From an uncultured Bacteroidales bacterium (lineage in GTDB: Bacteria; Bacteroidota; Bacteroidia; Bacteroidales; UBA932): a stretch of 63,059 nucleotides of DNA. This document shows, in pieces, positions 2,313 through 62,852 of this stretch. The stretch spans positions 1 to 63,059 of the forward strand of contig CAJODQ010000005.1 of assembly GCA_905233345.1 (NCBI GenBank), given 5' to 3'. Under the pieces are notes generated by a model, which worked only from the letters and a program-made list of their open reading frames with translations, made no database searches and was not told the DNA's origin. The translations under genes and the position numbers were made by a program. Position 1 is the stretch's first letter, and the number at the start of each line of letters is the position of its first letter.

Positions 2313-2337
2313 GATTCCGGGTCAAGCCCGGGATGAG
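2313..2337. repeat. Palindromic repeat (GATTCCGGG...CCCGGGATGAG)
   Basis: Inverted repeat with arms ATTCCGGG and CCCGGGAT around TCAAG. It belongs to the dispersed family also seen at 5407, 5491, 5521, 36971, 40800, 40825, 44828, 50821, 61591 and 61632. This copy lies in the secDF leader. Confidence 0.85.
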
Positions 2338-2383
2338 GGACAAAGGAAAGAAACAATATTAGTATTTTTAAATAATAACGTTT

Positions 2384-36958: not shown

Positions 36959-36970
36959 GCCCTGATCCCT

Positions 36971-36994
36971 CATGCCGGACTTGATCCGGCATCT
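36971..36994. repeat. Palindromic repeat, GCCGGA class, after groEL
   Basis: Arms ATGCCGGA and TCCGGCAT around CTTGA. Same class as the copies at 40800 and 61591. Confidence 0.85.
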
Positions 36995-40799: not shown

Positions 40800-40824
40800 G
40801 ATGCCGGATCAGGTCCGGCATGAC
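40800..40824. repeat. Palindromic repeat, GCCGGA class
   Basis: Arms ATGCCGGA and TCCGGCAT, starting at the base after the dnaE stop codon and ending with GAC. Directly joined to the copy at 40825. Confidence 0.88.
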
Positions 40825-40850
40825 GTCATTCCGGGCTTGACCCGGAATCT
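40825..40850. repeat. Palindromic repeat, ATTCCGGG class
   Basis: GTCATTCCGGG and CCCGGAATCT around CTTGA. With the copy at 40800 it forms the same A+B pair that occurs inside the coding sequence at 61591-61658. Confidence 0.9.
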
Positions 40851-44802: not shown

Positions 44803-45694
44803 CGGTCGATCAGGCCATACGAATCCCCTCATCCCGGGCTTGACCCGGGATCTCCTCGTCCTCATAGCTGTTCTCCTTTTATCCTCCCCTTTACGCGCGC
44901 AGGAGCCGGAATTGCTCTGGCTGGGGGAATGGCAGCATGAGTCTGTGGCCGAAGGCATTACTCTGCACAGGGCGTCTTTTGCAGGCAGTCTGTTTGGGTC
45001 CAATCAATATCTCTGTGTGCTGGAGGTGGCGCCGGGGGCGCGTTTCGATATCGTGCCGGCGGAAGAAAAAACGCTGGAGAAGACGACGGCGCTGGCGGAG
45101 CGTTCCGGGGCGATTGCAGCCGTTAACGGATCGTTCTTCAACATGCGGGCGCCGTACGGCTCGGTCAATTACCTGCGGGTCGACGGGCAGGAGCTGGCGC
45201 CCAATGCCTATGATTCGTATGAAAACGGCCGTCCGAAAGGCCGCAGCACGCGGCAAACCGGAGCGGTGGCTACCTTTCAAGGGGCGCTGTATGTGCTCAA
45301 AGGCGATGCGATCGAGCGTTGGGAGCGGGATATCGAGGCGGAAGATGTCGTGACGACCGGGCCTGTTCTGCTGGTCGGCGGCGAAGCCGAACCGGTGGTG
45401 AAAGATAAATTCAACACCAACCGACATCCGCGGACAGCAGTGGGCCGGCGGGCCGACGGGACGGTGTTGCTCGTGGTGGCTGACGGCCGCAATCAAGAGG
45501 CCGCAGGCTTGTCGATGATCGAATTGCAACAGGTGATGGCCGCCCTGGGCTGCTGCGACGCCATTAACCTCGACGGTGGCGGCTCCACGGCCATGGTGGT
45601 CCGCGGCGCCATTGTCAATCATCCTTCCGACAACCGCAAGTTCGACGCCGCCGGCGAACGCTCCGTCGCCAACGCGATCATTGTCACACGTTAA
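44783..45694 (+). CDS. Secreted phosphodiester glycosidase family protein (NAGPA / DUF2233 fold)
   Basis: A 303-residue exported protein. The core (about 70-303) matches the phosphodiester alpha-GlcNAcase fold: GAIAAVNGSFFNM, HPRTAVGRRADG and INLDGGGSTAMVV. Such enzymes remove N-acetylglucosamine from a phosphodiester; the true substrate here is unknown. The hydrophobic segment LVLIAVLLLSS ends at LRAQ. The n-region upstream (LIPGLTRDL) is encoded by a palindromic repeat at 44828-44854. Start is either the ATG at 44783 (inside rnr) or a TTG at 44840 inside the repeat. Confidence 0.82.
   Translation: MNWLKNNGRSGHTNPLIPGLTRDLLVLIAVLLLSSPLRAQEPELLWLGEWQHESVAEGITLHRASFAGSLFGSNQYLCVLEVAPGARFDIVPAEEKTLEKTTALAERSGAIAAVNGSFFNMRAPYGSVNYLRVDGQELAPNAYDSYENGRPKGRSTRQTGAVATFQGALYVLKGDAIERWERDIEAEDVVTTGPVLLVGGEAEPVVKDKFNTNRHPRTAVGRRADGTVLLVVADGRNQEAAGLSMIELQQVMAALGCCDAINLDGGGSTAMVVRGAIVNHPSDNRKFDAAGERSVANAIIVTR
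44828..44854. repeat. Palindromic repeat within the start of the glycosidase gene
   Basis: Arms ATCCCGGG and CCCGGGAT around CTTGA. It is read in frame as part of the signal-peptide n-region. Confidence 0.85.
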
Positions 45695-50820: not shown

Positions 50821-50850
50821 CGTCATTCCGGGCTTGACCCGGAATCTTTT
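50821..50850. repeat. Palindromic repeat in the rsgA promoter region
   Basis: GTCATTCCGGG and CCCGGAATCT around CTTGA. Its TTGAC (50834-50838) falls about 18 nt before the rsgA -7 box, where a -33 element is expected. Confidence 0.85.
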
Positions 50851-56533: not shown

Positions 56534-57268
56534 ATGAAAAAGATCGTTGCGCTCATTCTTTGCCTGGCTGTCGGGGAAATGCTCTTCCCGGGCCTGGCAC
56601 GCGCGCAGGACGACTATACCCTCTTCCGGCGCGGAGCCGGTGAGGCGTCCCTCCTGTACCGGGGACACAAGTCTTTCGATTACTACATGCTCTACAACGG
56701 AACGCCCTTCCTGGAAACGCCGGTGTTCCGTCCCGGGACGGTGGTTTACAACAGCAAGTTGTACAGCGGGGTGGAACTCAACATCGACGCGTCGCGCCAG
56801 GAATTGATCGTGCGCATCGGAAAAGGTGTGTCCAACAAGGTATTGGGGCGCGAATTCGTGGAGCAGTGCACCATCGACGGTCGCCGCTTCCTGAACCTGC
56901 AGTACCACATGGGGCCGTCGGCCCCTGACGGCTACTGGGAAGTGCTCTACGACGGGCGTAACAAGGTACTGCGCCGCGTCAAAAAGAAGCTTGAACAGGA
57001 CGTTGACGGCAGCAGGCGCGACCAGACCCACTATGACGGCGCGTACCGCTACGACGTGTATCAGACCTTCACCTATTCGGCGGACTTTTGCTACCTGACG
57101 GAAGATGGCCGTGTCATCCCGTGCCGCCGCCGCAAAGACGTCCTCAAGCTGGTGGACAAATCCCAGCGGAGCGAAGTGCGCCGATACATTCGTCAACTGG
57201 AGCGGACGGATATGCTGCCTTTCAGCAGTTATTTCGTGGCCGTGGCCCATTACCTGGAAACGCGATGA
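56534..57268 (+). CDS. Secreted protein of unknown function, first gene of the TonB module
   Basis: A 244-residue exported protein (signal peptide about residues 1-24, ending at ARAQ). The body looks all-beta at first (YNGTPFLETPVF, GVELNIDASRQELIVRI) and ends in a basic helical tail (RRKDVLKLVDKSQRSEVRRY). No family is recognised. It overlaps the TonB receptor by 4 nt (ATGA), so it is probably made with it and may help its assembly or act as periplasmic partner; this is inference. Confidence 0.7.
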   Translation: MKKIVALILCLAVGEMLFPGLARAQDDYTLFRRGAGEASLLYRGHKSFDYYMLYNGTPFLETPVFRPGTVVYNSKLYSGVELNIDASRQELIVRIGKGVSNKVLGREFVEQCTIDGRRFLNLQYHMGPSAPDGYWEVLYDGRNKVLRRVKKKLEQDVDGSRRDQTHYDGAYRYDVYQTFTYSADFCYLTEDGRVIPCRRRKDVLKLVDKSQRSEVRRYIRQLERTDMLPFSSYFVAVAHYLETR

Positions 57269-59934
57269 AAAAACTGATCCTGCTCCTGTCCCTCATGGCT
57301 GCCCTTTGCTGCAGCTTTCCGCTCCAGGCCCAGCAGCCTATCGGAACGGGCTTCGGCGTGTATAAGGTCGGGATCGACGAGCTGGTCCACTTCATCCGCA
57401 CAGAGATCTCGCCCGACGTATACTGCGTGCGCGACACCTCCGACCACAAGAACTATACGATCCGCGTGCCGCGGGAGGAATTCCTGCAGCGGGCCTTCGA
57501 AGAACTCACGGCCAACGGCTACACGATCACCCGCTACGACGGCAAATACTTTATCGTCCGGGGCAAGGACATCGCCACCCAGCTGCCCCTGGGCTATTTC
57601 GAAGACCGCAAGCCGGCCGTGGACACGGCCTTCCAGAAATATCTGAGTGACCAGACCACGGTCATGACCTTCCAGAACAAGGTCTACGAGATCGGTGACC
57701 CGGACACCCGGCAGAAAGCCAGCAAGGCCACTGTGCGCGGCTATGTGCGCGATGTGTCAAGCGGTGAGCCGCTGGTGGGCGTGTCGGTCTATCTCGATGA
57801 CGGAAAATCCTATACCCAGACCGACGCCTACGGCTTCTACAAGATGACAGTCCCCACGGGCCCCGGCAAGCTGGGTTTCAGCGGCTATTCGCTGGAGGAC
57901 ATGAAGCTTGATCTGGTGGTTTACGGCGATGGTGCGCTCGACGTGGTGATGAAAGAGAAAGTCTTTACGCTCAAAGGCGCCGTGGTGACCTCCGAGAGCA
58001 TGTCGCAGCACCGTACCCCGAAGATGGGTGTGGAAGTGGTGCGCATGAGCACCATCAAGAACGTGCCGGTGGTCTTCGGCGAGGCCGATGCCCTGAAGGT
58101 GGTAATGACGCTGCCGGGCGTCAAGTCGGTGGGCGAGGCGTCGAGCGGATTCAACGTGCGCGGCGGCTCCACCGACCAGAACCTCATCCTCTTCAACGAA
58201 GGGACCGTCTACAACCCGAACCACATGTTCGGTATTCTCTCGTCGTTCAACCCCGACGTGATCAACGACGTGGAACTGTACAAAAGCTCGATTCCCGCGC
58301 AGTACGGCGGGCGCATCTCCTCGGTGCTGGAGGTCCGCAGCCGCGACGGCAACAGCAAGAAAGTGCAGGGTTCCCTGGGCCTGGGTCTGCTGACGAGCCG
58401 ACTCCACCTCGAGGGTCCGCTCGTAAAGGACCGCACGACCTTCATCCTGGGCGGCCGCACCACCTATTCCAACTGGATCTTCAAGCTGCTGCCCGAAAAC
58501 AGCAACTACCACGGCGGCAAAGCTTCCTTCCAGGACGCCAACCTGGGGATCACGCACAAGATCAATGAGCGCAACACGATTCATGCCTACGGCTACTGGT
58601 CCCGCGACAAATTCAGCTTCAGCAACGATACGATCTTCCGCTACCGCAACATCAACGGAGCGCTGAAGTGGCACAGCATTTTCAACGACCGGCACTCCAT
58701 GACCGTCACCGCGGGATATGACAGCTACCACTATGGCATTGAGGATACCTTCAACAAGCATGCGGCCTACACGCTCAACACGGCGGTGGACCAATATTTC
58801 ACCAAGCTCAACTTCAAATATTCGCTCAACAATGCCCATACCTTCACCTATGGATTCAACGCCACGGTATACGACCTGAATCCGGGATCCCTCAAGCCCG
58901 TGGGCGATTCGTCGCTGGTGCTGGGCCGCGACCTGGACCGGGAGCGCGCCGTTGAGGCGGCGCTCTACGTGAGCGACACCTGGATCCTGGGTGAGCATCT
59001 ATCGATCGAGGCGGGCCTGCGCTGGTCGCAGTTCCTGCGCAAGGGCAACCATCGCTTCCATGGCGGCCCTGAATTTCGTATTTCGGGCAAATATTCCTTC
59101 AATGATGTGACGAGCGTCAAGGCGGGCTTCAACACGATGCGGCAGTATATCCACATGATTTCCAACAGCATCAACGTGTCGCCCACCGACAGCTGGCGCC
59201 TGGCCAGCGACCAGCTCCGTCCCCAGACAGGCTGGCAGGCCGCGGCGGGGGTCTACCGCACGTTGCTCGACAATACCCTCGACCTCTCGCTGGAAGCCTA
59301 CTACAAGCGCGTCAAGCACTTCATCGACTACAAGAGCGGCGCCGTGCTGGTGATGAACCCCAACCTGGCCGACGACCTCGTCGAGACGGAAAACCGCTCT
59401 TACGGCGTGGAGTTCATGGCCAAGAAGGCGGTGGGCAAACTCAATGGATGGATATCCTATACGTATTCCCGCTCGCGCCTGCGTGAGATGCAAGACCGCG
59501 GCATCTATACCATCAACAACGGTGAATGGTACAACGCGCCCTACGACAAGCCGCATGACGTGAAGGTGGTGGCGAACTATAAGTTCACCCACCGCTACAG
59601 CATCTCGGCCAACCTCGACTACGCCACGGGCCGTCCGGTCACCATTCCGGTGGGCCGCTATTACTACCAGGACGGCATGCGCCTGGTCTACTCCGAACGC
59701 AACGGCTACCGTATCCCCGACTACTTCCGCCTCGACCTGGCGCTGATCATCGAGCCGAGCCACTATCTGAAGAAACTGACCCACATGTCCTTCACCATCG
59801 GCTGCTACAATGTCACCGGCCGGAAGAACCCGTATTCGGTGTACTACACGTCCGAAGGAGGGAACATCAGCGGACATATGCTGAGCGTGTTCGCCACCCA
59901 GATCCCCTATGTCAACTTCAATCTGAAATTCTGA
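57265..59934 (+). CDS. TonB-dependent receptor with STN and carboxypeptidase-regulatory-like domains
   Basis: An 889-residue outer-membrane receptor. Signal peptide (about 1-22), STN/secretin-like domain (about 25-100), CarboxypepD_reg-like domain (about 150-215; VRGYVRDVSSGEPLVGVSVY), plug (about 250-380; FNVRGGSTDQNLILFNEG) and 22-strand barrel to the C-terminal LKF. It takes up an unknown ligand with energy from TonB. An STN domain often signals to an anti-sigma factor, but none is nearby. The DUF4249 gene overlaps its stop by one base. Confidence 0.92.
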   Translation: MKKLILLLSLMAALCCSFPLQAQQPIGTGFGVYKVGIDELVHFIRTEISPDVYCVRDTSDHKNYTIRVPREEFLQRAFEELTANGYTITRYDGKYFIVRGKDIATQLPLGYFEDRKPAVDTAFQKYLSDQTTVMTFQNKVYEIGDPDTRQKASKATVRGYVRDVSSGEPLVGVSVYLDDGKSYTQTDAYGFYKMTVPTGPGKLGFSGYSLEDMKLDLVVYGDGALDVVMKEKVFTLKGAVVTSESMSQHRTPKMGVEVVRMSTIKNVPVVFGEADALKVVMTLPGVKSVGEASSGFNVRGGSTDQNLILFNEGTVYNPNHMFGILSSFNPDVINDVELYKSSIPAQYGGRISSVLEVRSRDGNSKKVQGSLGLGLLTSRLHLEGPLVKDRTTFILGGRTTYSNWIFKLLPENSNYHGGKASFQDANLGITHKINERNTIHAYGYWSRDKFSFSNDTIFRYRNINGALKWHSIFNDRHSMTVTAGYDSYHYGIEDTFNKHAAYTLNTAVDQYFTKLNFKYSLNNAHTFTYGFNATVYDLNPGSLKPVGDSSLVLGRDLDRERAVEAALYVSDTWILGEHLSIEAGLRWSQFLRKGNHRFHGGPEFRISGKYSFNDVTSVKAGFNTMRQYIHMISNSINVSPTDSWRLASDQLRPQTGWQAAAGVYRTLLDNTLDLSLEAYYKRVKHFIDYKSGAVLVMNPNLADDLVETENRSYGVEFMAKKAVGKLNGWISYTYSRSRLREMQDRGIYTINNGEWYNAPYDKPHDVKVVANYKFTHRYSISANLDYATGRPVTIPVGRYYYQDGMRLVYSERNGYRIPDYFRLDLALIIEPSHYLKKLTHMSFTIGCYNVTGRKNPYSVYYTSEGGNISGHMLSVFATQIPYVNFNLKF

Positions 59935-61130
59935 TGAAAAAGCGTCCTATCCTTCTCCTCTTCCTGGCCGTCGCCGCACTGGTCGCGTCGTGTGTCTACG
60001 ACTACGACCCGCAGATCGACGGAGAGGGCGGCTACATGATCGTGGAGGGCAACATCATCATTGGGGAAGTGAGCGAGATCCGTCTCAGCTATTCCTGGTC
60101 GCTGGTCGACACCCTTGCCACCCAGGACGAAGAACGCATGAAGGTTCTCTATCAGAGCAAGATGCATGTGGAAGACAGCCAGGGCGGACGCTACGAGAAC
60201 ACCATGGGCGCCTCGGCGGGCATTTATTTTGGCTCGCCCTATGCCTATTTCGATATGCGGAACGCCGATCCTGCGCTGGAATACCGCCTGGTGATTGAGA
60301 ACGCCAACGGTACTTATGTCTCGTCCTGGGACAAGGCCATTTCGCCCGGGCAGATCGACAGTCTTTCCTATGTCATCAGCGACGACCGCTCGACGATGAG
60401 CATCTGTGTGTCGACCCATACGGGCGATGCGGGGCCCAGCTATTACCGCTGGCGGGTGGAAGAGACCTGGGAGTACCACGCTGAAACCTCCGCTGCCTAC
60501 AAATACATCTACACCGGTGGCTTAGATGGCGATGTCGTCCCGCTGCCCGACAGCGAGAGTACATATCGTTGCTGGACGGGTGGCATGCGCTCCGAGATCA
60601 TGACGGGAAGTTCGGAGGATCTTTCGGAAGACCGACTGGTGAATCACCAGCTTTACACCCTGAACAACCGGGATGAACGCATCAGTGTGTGCTATCAGCC
60701 CCAGGTCACGCAGATGCGGATTCCGGAAGAGGCTTATCGCTATTGGGAGCAGATGAACCGCAACGGCCAGGATGTGGGTGGCCTGTTCTCGCCCGAGCCT
60801 TCGGAGATGCGCGGCAACGTGGCCAACCTCGACAACCCGGCGGAAATGGTGCTGGGTTATGTGGGCGTGATGACCGTCACCCGTGCGACCATGTATGTGG
60901 AAAATAGCCTGACCCGTTTCTACCGGAATCCCGTCCGGCCGGAACGGGCGCTCGATACCCTGCGAACCCGTGCCGAATACCTGGAAGCCTATACATTGGG
61001 CAAACGGCCCACTTTTGATGTCTGGAACGATATCGGGACCTGGATCGGCTATGAATGGTGGCCCGTCAACTGCCTGGACTGCCGTTTACGGGGTGGTACG
61101 ACGAAACGCCCGCCCAACTGGCCCCTTTAA
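59934..61130 (+). CDS. DUF4249 lipoprotein
   Basis: A 398-residue lipoprotein (lipobox LVASC). The immunoglobulin-like N-terminal part and the C-terminal signature CLDCRLRGGTTKRPPNW identify DUF4249. These proteins occur beside STN-type TonB receptors in Bacteroidota and may be surface or periplasmic ligand binders. Function unproven. Confidence 0.85.
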   Translation: MKKRPILLLFLAVAALVASCVYDYDPQIDGEGGYMIVEGNIIIGEVSEIRLSYSWSLVDTLATQDEERMKVLYQSKMHVEDSQGGRYENTMGASAGIYFGSPYAYFDMRNADPALEYRLVIENANGTYVSSWDKAISPGQIDSLSYVISDDRSTMSICVSTHTGDAGPSYYRWRVEETWEYHAETSAAYKYIYTGGLDGDVVPLPDSESTYRCWTGGMRSEIMTGSSEDLSEDRLVNHQLYTLNNRDERISVCYQPQVTQMRIPEEAYRYWEQMNRNGQDVGGLFSPEPSEMRGNVANLDNPAEMVLGYVGVMTVTRATMYVENSLTRFYRNPVRPERALDTLRTRAEYLEAYTLGKRPTFDVWNDIGTWIGYEWWPVNCLDCRLRGGTTKRPPNWPL

Positions 61131-61142
61131 AATGAGAAGAAG

Positions 61143-62852
61143 ATGAAAAAAATACTCTTGCTGTTGACGGTGCTGCTTGCGGCAGCGGGCCTGGCACAGG
61201 ACCGGGTGGTGGAACGGACCTATCTGACCACCGACCGGGACGTGTACGTGGCCGGCGAGCCCCTCTGGTATTCGGCGTTCTGCCTCGATGCGGCCAGGGG
61301 TACGCTTTCGCCCATCAGCAGCGTGGCCTATGTGGAGTTGCACAACGCTGAGACGATGGTGGCATCAGGCAAGGTGGCGCTTGTGAACGGGCGCGGCGCC
61401 GGACAGTTGTCGCTTCCCGCTTCGCTGCCGACCGGTAACTACCGGCTGGTGGCCTACACGGCCCAGAACCGTGCGGAGCGCGGCTACGACTTCAATGGCC
61501 TGGCCTCGAAGACGATCTCGGTCTTCAACGTCTTCTCCGGTGACCGGGTGAAAGACGGGGTTGAAGTGGTGTCGGAAGAAGACTATGAGAGATGCCGGAT
61601 CGAGTCCGGCATGACGAAGGGAAATCATGGCGTCATTCCGGGCTCCGCCCCGGAACCTGTCGCCCTTTCCTGGAACGGCGAAGGCCTTGTTGTGGAGAAC
61701 CGCGGCGACCAGCCGGCGACACTGAGCCTGTCGGTGACCCATGACGACGTCTTCGTTTCGAACGGCAATCCGACCATCGCCGACTTCACGGCTGCGGCCC
61801 GCCGCGTCGGCCCGCGCAGGTTCGACAATACCATCCTGCCTGAATTTGAAGGAGAGATCATCCACGGGCACATCACGGGCTTCAGTGCGGAGATGCGCCC
61901 GAAACTGCTGGGCAAATACGCCTTCATTTCCACGCCCTCCACGAAATCCGACGTTTACTCCTCGGTCATCGACGACGAAGGCCGGGTGGCTTTCTTTACC
62001 GGCAATATCTACGGAACCCACGAATATATCTGCGAGATCGAAGGCATCGATCCGTCGCTCAACTGCTTCATCGAGCTGGAATCCCCCTTTGTCAACGCGG
62101 TGGTCGCCGCCCCGGAGAAGCTGCGCATGAGCAAATCCCTGCGCGAGGCCTTGCTCTCCCGCAGCGTGGCCATGCAGATTGAGCGCCAGTTTACCAGCGA
62201 TACGCTGCTCGATCCGCTGCTCGTGCACCAGAGCGGCCTCTTTGGCGAATATGAATACGTCTACGTTCTTGACGACTACACCCGCTTTACGACCATGGAG
62301 GAGGTGCTCATCGAATTCGTGACGGAGATGCGGGCCCGCCGCCGCAGCGACGGATCCCATGAGATCCAGATCCGGCTCGACAACGGCAACCAGCCGGTCT
62401 TCTCCTCGCTGCCGACCCTGATGCTGCTCGACGGTGTACCCGTCTTCGACCAGCAGAAGATCATGGACTACGACCCGTTGCTGGTGGAGTCCATCCACAT
62501 CTACCCGCAGACCTATTATATCGGAAGCCGTTCCTACGAGGGCGTCGCCAATTTTGTGACCTACAGGCACAATCTGCCTAGCTTCCAGTTCGGGGGCAAT
62601 GTGCGCGTCGTCGATTTCCAGGGTGTCTCGTGGCCGACAGCCTTCACGGGCGAGGCCCTGCGCGGGGCGGAGGATTATCCCGATTACCGCCAGACCATCT
62701 ACTGGCATCCGCTGCTGGACCTGGCTCCCGGCCAGACCCTGGTGATCCCCTGCAAGCTGCCCGATTATCGGGGCGATTTCAAGGTCTCCCTGGAGGGTCT
62801 CTCGGCCGACGGAAAGCCGCTTCAGGCGGATACTTCCTTCTCCACGAAATAA
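61143..62852 (+). CDS. Secreted MG2-like protein with plug-like C-terminal part and an in-frame repeat insertion
   Basis: A 569-residue exported protein. After the signal peptide (1-18) an MG2-type (macroglobulin-like) domain spans about 20-135 (TTDRDVYVAGEPLWYSAFCL). The C-terminal part (about 400-510) resembles a TonB receptor plug (LMLLDGVPVFD, SRSYEGVANFVTY) but no barrel follows. Residues about 150-172 (RCRIESGMTKG... to PGSAPEP) are encoded by two palindromic repeats and look like an insertion in a linker. It may act with the receptor and DUF4249 protein upstream; 12 nt separate it from the latter. Confidence 0.75.
   Translation: MKKILLLLTVLLAAAGLAQDRVVERTYLTTDRDVYVAGEPLWYSAFCLDAARGTLSPISSVAYVELHNAETMVASGKVALVNGRGAGQLSLPASLPTGNYRLVAYTAQNRAERGYDFNGLASKTISVFNVFSGDRVKDGVEVVSEEDYERCRIESGMTKGNHGVIPGSAPEPVALSWNGEGLVVENRGDQPATLSLSVTHDDVFVSNGNPTIADFTAAARRVGPRRFDNTILPEFEGEIIHGHITGFSAEMRPKLLGKYAFISTPSTKSDVYSSVIDDEGRVAFFTGNIYGTHEYICEIEGIDPSLNCFIELESPFVNAVVAAPEKLRMSKSLREALLSRSVAMQIERQFTSDTLLDPLLVHQSGLFGEYEYVYVLDDYTRFTTMEEVLIEFVTEMRARRRSDGSHEIQIRLDNGNQPVFSSLPTLMLLDGVPVFDQQKIMDYDPLLVESIHIYPQTYYIGSRSYEGVANFVTYRHNLPSFQFGGNVRVVDFQGVSWPTAFTGEALRGAEDYPDYRQTIYWHPLLDLAPGQTLVIPCKLPDYRGDFKVSLEGLSADGKPLQADTSFSTK
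61591..61615. repeat. Palindromic repeat, GCCGGA class, inside a coding sequence
   Basis: Arms ATGCCGGA and TCCGGCAT around TCGAG, read in frame (codons about 150-158 of the MG2-like gene). Confidence 0.9.
61632..61658. repeat. Palindromic repeat, ATTCCGGG class, inside a coding sequence
   Basis: GTCATTCCGGG with a CCCCGGAA arm; the core is GCTCCGC. Read in frame (codons about 164-172). Spaced 16 nt from the copy at 61591. Confidence 0.85.

Follow-up and report, generated by a model that had tools for sequence, protein, structure and literature searches.

Does a stretch of coding sequence in an MG2-like protein gene, read by the first-pass annotation as two palindromic repeats inserted in frame, represent a mobile DNA element that came to be translated, or is it ordinary protein sequence? 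The window, i.e. the whole stretch of DNA analyzed (63,059 nucleotides from an uncultured Bacteroidales bacterium), carries this gene at positions 61143-62849 of the forward strand as an open frame of 569 aa, with a weak match to the MG2 domain (E 2.7e-7, 31.3 bits versus a Pfam cut-off of 32.8). A DUF4249 gene (59934-61127, forward strand, E 5.9e-35) is located directly upstream, and the same cluster contains a gene for a TonB-dependent receptor with CarbopepD_reg_2 and Plug domains (57265-59931, forward strand). The closest named relatives of the MG2-like gene occur in Bacteroidales assemblies, mostly from rumen or other forestomach samples as judged by their titles. The analyses described below support the in-frame insertion of a mobile palindrome: the segment is very probably a pair of CGTC-tagged REPs with facing tags that inserted into a permissive linker of the MG2-like protein, where inserts that keep the frame would survive as nearly neutral peptide.

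Palindromic units inside the MG2-like gene

The intergenic REP pair recovered by pattern matching at 40800-40849 consists of a reverse-strand unit (40800-40825) and a forward-strand unit (40824-40849) with their tags facing each other. As claimed by the annotation, both units recur inside the MG2-like gene, at 61591-61657. Unit A (61591-61616, reverse strand) agrees with the repeat at 21 of 22 scored positions, retains 8/8 stem pairs and is read in frame as (R)CRIESGMT. Unit B (61631-61657, forward strand), detected with a flexible-loop pattern, is a 27-nt form with one extra loop base (17/22 when scored against the 26-nt unit) and is read as VIPGSAPEP. The frame of the gene is open across both units, over about 23 codons, with neither stop nor frameshift. 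Within the window the two units have 3 and 4 matches at up to 3 mismatches, compared with a mean of 0.00 in 100 shuffles, and high scores among the MG2 homologues analyzed below are confined to the linker. These counts refute a chance resemblance of ordinary protein sequence to the repeat, the probability of which is negligible.

Alignment with homologues lacking the insertion indicates how much protein was gained. Between conserved flanks the window protein has 33 residues versus 23-24 in six unit-less homologues, implying a net gain of 9-10 residues; the figure of about 23 added residues given by the annotation thus holds for the span of the element, but is too large for the gain. Eroded and shorter versions of the element, with 29 and 25 residues between the flanks, occur in the two nearest relatives (82% identity). 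In a structure model with a mean pLDDT of 86.9, residues 161-170 have a mean pLDDT of 38 and form a loop that connects a helix with a strand, so that the linker is modelled as a low-confidence loop. The alignment used with the structure model covers 38 of the 43 homologues, L086, L100, L198, L201 and L202 being left out.

Repeat copies in the genome and in other genes

A genome-wide scan (assembly of 2.32 Mb in 68 contigs, 89.4% complete) that allowed up to 3 mismatches gave 94 copies of the palindromic unit CGTCATNCCGGNCTTGANCCGGNATC, and none were recovered with a reversed control pattern. Among the 93 units whose flanks are complete, stems are 8 bp long and start with A-T in 89/93 and T-A in 88/93 units, 726 of 744 stem cells being Watson-Crick pairs. 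The stem is accompanied by an unpaired tag, CGTC or CCTC (C 96%, G 78% or C 19%, T 99%, C 99%), a 5-nt loop (CTTGA) and a conserved unpaired tail, CTC (C 98%, T 91%, C 74%); a minority with a 6-nt loop (the 27-nt form) is also present. Altogether 97 units, 3 of them caught solely by the flexible-loop pattern, are grouped in 88 clusters. Most clusters are single units (79/88), and the nine two-unit clusters have tags facing (6), same-strand (2) or tails facing (1) arrangements. Four single units that are not read through, as judged by pattern match and frame census, are found in the window at 2313-2338 (reverse strand) and at 36968-36993, 44827-44852 and 50821-50846 (forward strand).

All copies were mapped against gene frames by requiring, for each cluster, a stop-free frame and coding-like codons on both sides. 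By this test 17 of the 88 clusters are in frame, within 15 genes. When the test was applied to 26-base positions drawn at random from the window, the training sequence of the codon model, 807 of 1000 passed (Fisher p 1e-31), as did 753 of 975 positions outside the window located 300-900 bases from REPs (Fisher p 2e-27), indicating that REPs strongly avoid genes and that the in-gene copies are survivors. The both-side coding thresholds are strict and a probable case (L024) falls narrowly below them, so that 17/88 may be low. One further locus (L016) gave the initial impression of a gene broken by a REP, a reading that was rejected, the two sides resembling two different proteins by eye; we take these to be PurD-like and FolD-like. 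REPs also encode the final codons (EIPGQARNDE and EIPGQSRNDER) of two long frames, in L026 and L112 (position 1501), where they are located at the 3' end.

According to Pfam, the genes with in-frame units encode a DnaG primase, an RsmE-type RNA methyltransferase, a GH94 phosphorylase, a SufE fusion, a ferredoxin-type protein, a Fe/Mn superoxide dismutase, a DsbD-like protein, a sugar-nucleotide epimerase or dehydratase, a DUF5009 protein, a MutS2-like protein (MutS_V and Smr), a FAD-linked oxidase, a HI0933-like flavoprotein and the MG2-like protein, together with a DNA-alkylation-repair enzyme and an OstA-like protein that contain two clusters each. In several targets besides MG2 the REP is located between domains. 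Comparison with solved homologues places the encoded residues in gaps of the latter in several cases. In the cellobiose phosphorylase an 8-residue gap coincides exactly with IPGQARND, and in the epimerase-like protein the REP is covered by an 18-residue gap. The superoxide dismutase unit lies between two Pfam domains, in an interdomain stretch that is longer than in the solved homologue, and in RsmE a 6-residue gap starts inside the REP-encoded residues. Two cases were counted against the insertion reading: no clear gap was seen for the HI0933-like L009 relative to its solved homologue, and no solved relative was found for L050 at 1e-8.

The 27-nt form, which spans nine codons, was followed separately. 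Among 30 loci (L241-L270) taken from 46 listed matches, it is in frame by thresholds in nine, and all nine use one strand and one frame, V[IM]PGSD[RP][AE]S, with a doubled copy in L262. Two RsmE loci (L247 and L256) fall below the thresholds, yet their segment is in frame, as seen in L223 and L225, which cover them. The idea that the loop variant is a gene-adapted form was dropped, 19 of the 30 loci not being shown to be genic. The single frame of the nine loci, like the recurrence of the IPGQARND-type frame in 8 of the 17 in-frame clusters of the window genome (tallied by eye), would fit selection on the peptide itself, which might serve as a flexible or a binding linker. However, some of the nine loci look mutually orthologous, the host proteins are functionally unrelated, and at the MG2 linker the peptide differs with placement (CRIESGMT, RHPRLDRGS, MPDQVRHD) while the palindrome is kept. 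Taken together, selection on the peptide is a highly improbable explanation.

Linker reuse and stem class across the genus

In order to follow the linker through the genus, homologues of the MG2-like protein, matched in 35 of 40 genomes (window genome included, all comparisons being subject to the incompleteness of the sampled assemblies), were compared. The set of 43 comprises 30 loci from the genus search and 13 further matches, weaker and mostly MG2-domain matches being left out; it includes two incomplete or divergent genes, L198 (471 aa, at a contig end) and L202 (499 aa). A unit scoring at least 17/22 occurs at this linker in 15 of the 43, and the best score outside the linker is at most 16/22 in all of them. 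Adding the 27-nt forms of L076 and L079 and a half unit in L192, 18 linkers contain REP-derived DNA. Within the genus the linkers have either REP DNA or no recognizable REP, and the same segment encoded by unrelated DNA, the finding by which the annotation would have been overturned, was never encountered.

Three placements were distinguished at the MG2 linker: reverse (CRIESGMT), forward (RHPRLDRGS) and a shifted frame (MPDQVRHD, in L088). On a maximum-likelihood tree built with the linker excluded (42 of 43 rows, L202 left out), these require at least 8 placement changes, and presence alone requires 5; an earlier quick tree with stricter labels gave 10 and 7. The forward, opposite-strand placement was rejected as a single clade (AU p 3.5e-5). 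As a separate observation, L195 and L198 have a forward followed by a reverse unit at this linker, with tails facing, whereas in the window gene the tags face.

These patterns bear on the possibility that one ancestral REP pair, acquired by the linker before the split of a 24-gene clade, was later subject only to decay and to conversion by genomic REPs. Consistent with such a history, one clade with full support contains REP-derived DNA in 18 of its 24 genes, compared with 0 of the 18 other rows of the tree, and the position after an EEY motif is common to many. However, placements vary in strand and frame, and the opposite-strand genes do not form a single clade; a strand flip is hard to obtain by conversion alone, although an inversion at the palindrome could produce it. 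A single ancestral insertion is therefore considered unlikely, and repeated arrival of REPs at a tolerant linker is preferred.

Other loops provide similar cases. At one loop of RsmE, genomes G000 and G006 have REPs on opposite strands and three further genomes (G017, G018 and G038) have 27-nt forms. In the superoxide dismutase of a relative (L208) the unit is located at codon 56, and in that of the window genome at codon 91.

Segments of other kinds were also observed at the RsmE loop. In three genomes (L217, L221 and L222) another in-frame segment with a self-complementary stretch, ESPSGDSGD...RRGLGQ, precedes IGPEGDFS, and its core was absent from the rest of the 270 loci compared. In two genomes (L223 and L225) a long palindrome-like in-frame segment around NLPLHQACAQ adjoins the 27-nt form; one core pattern of this segment was found in L225 and L256 only, both of which represent the same gene.

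Exact-pattern counts separate the units into two stem classes, at least one exact copy of either being present in 21 of the 40 genomes. The CCGG class is dominant in G000, G016, G020, G026, G034 and G036 and the CCCG class in the other 15 REP-bearing genomes. Stem class was scored in 21 in-gene units, L075 and the 27-nt units being left out; the class-defining pair is broken in 3, and in all 18 informative units (15 genes, 11 genomes) it corresponds to the majority class of the host. Counted against this pattern is one unit with a broken pair (L082), the intact side of which leans towards the class absent from its host. The two sides of the class pair covary, and the peptide varies along with them; this suggests that DNA elements are being turned over rather than that the peptide is selected. 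Shared ancestry accounts for part of the match, and only 2 class changes are required among the 16 REP-bearing genomes on the RsmE tree.

All eight stem pairs are kept in 15 of the 21 scored units. The hairpin might act in the mRNA, by delaying ribosomes or by determining how stable the transcript is within the operon, and the intact stems would agree with such a role. However, intact stems are equally expected of young copies, and 6 of the 24 clade members have no recognized unit, so that a function of this kind appears very unlikely. In the preferred reading, that of REPs entering tolerant linkers, REPs would keep moving, either by single-strand transposition or by copying between REPs through gene conversion, and frame-breaking insertions would be purged by selection. 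Inserts that lengthen a flexible linker by a multiple of three bases, in a stop-free frame, could persist as nearly neutral peptide, this neutrality being presumed. The site may then be predisposed to receive further REPs or to have its REP replaced, owing either to a REP already present or to the flexible linker. More tentatively, such linkers might be standing landing sites, in which new REPs are drawn to the resident REP or its hairpin, or overwrite it, and the linker sequence is repeatedly reset to the REP type of the host; we regard this as possible but doubtful.

A gene for a Y1 transposase of 305 aa (L071, 1393-2307) was considered as candidate mover. Its close relatives (59-86% identity) occur in 10 other genomes of the genus, and matches at E ≤0.001 in 29 of 40. 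Co-occurrence with REPs is significant by Fisher tests (p 3e-4 for the family, 2e-4 for the close relatives of L071), but is unsupported once ancestry is considered: a tree restricted to 30 genomes, those having an RsmE row, provided only 4 independent pairs, too few to decide either way (median sign-test p 1). Also, no REP unit was found in the fetched flanks of 30 Y1-transposase loci. The candidate was not retained as the mover of the REPs.

Relation to known elements

CGTC-tagged REPs were defined by Di Nocera et al. 2013 (PMC3733652) in five phyla, Bacteroidetes among them, and are characterized by a CGTC (or CCTC, TGTC) tag, an 8-9 bp stem starting with AT and a 4-5 nt loop. The units described here share all three features, with an unpaired CGTC or CCTC tag, an 8-bp stem starting with AT and a 5-nt loop. 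They also resemble those REPs in that dimers have mostly facing tags (mainly head to head in PMC3733652) and in that they occur mostly outside genes, with some in frame inside, replication and repair genes included. Neither group is tied to a transposase: at the 30 Y1-transposase loci, the type looked at here, no unit was seen in the fetched flanks, nor the arrangement of a REPtron, i.e. a RAYT gene flanked by cognate REPs. Differences are the tail, CTC rather than the CCA present in most but not all CGTC REPs, the excess of single units (79/88 clusters) over the dimers that predominate in that paper, and the divergence of stem class between species of one genus. The mechanism of CGTC REP movement is left open in the same source.

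The parallel with Rickettsia palindromic elements drawn by the annotation proved closer than claimed. R. conorii RPE-4 is described as a CGTC-4 REP and RPE-6 as a CGTC-1 REP (PMC3733652), placing both in the same superfamily as the present units, and RPE-1 as a longer palindromic insertion. Like RPE-4 and RPE-6, the units are inserted in frame in genes that probably encode functional proteins (the 17 clusters in 15 genes); unlike these, they are not alphaproteobacterial, and the kinship follows the classification given in that paper. Different REPs near one site of orthologues are reported for Xanthomonas recB genes (PMC3733652), a situation similar to that of the MG2 linker, which differs in involving 15 of 43 homologues, paralogues included, and both strands. 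Frame-preserving REPs are also described inside tnpA(REP) genes of subclass 2.4, abundant in Bacteroidetes and Cyanobacteria (PMC6006769). There the insertions lie in a peripheral region of the transposase gene and have a GT[AG]G-type tag, whereas the present units have a CGTC tag and lie in unrelated genes.

The annotation knew of no such case in Bacteroidota. This claim is weakened by the CGTC REPs of Bacteroidetes and by the intragenic REPs of several species, many in replication and repair genes (PMC3733652), as well as by the in-frame REPs of tnpA(REP) (PMC6006769); a Bacteroidota protein may be among the intragenic cases of PMC3733652. In a literature search by title and start of abstract, with terms naming neither the genus nor MG2, no paper on REPs inside Bacteroidota genes was found beyond these two. 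The kind of event is thus already known, as in Rickettsia, and occurs here in many genes of one bacterial genus. What is added is a count of in-frame copies in one genome, the reuse of single linkers across the genus on both strands and in several frames, and the match between in-gene stem class and host.

In-frame palindromic insertion is thereby extended to many unrelated conserved genes of one Bacteroidales genus. The 40 genomes, 21 of them with exact copies, and the repeated hits at the same loops provide a natural system in which to study the movement of CGTC REPs and the neutrality of their inserts. If linkers do act as landing sites, REPs would continually supply these bacteria with new interdomain linker sequence.
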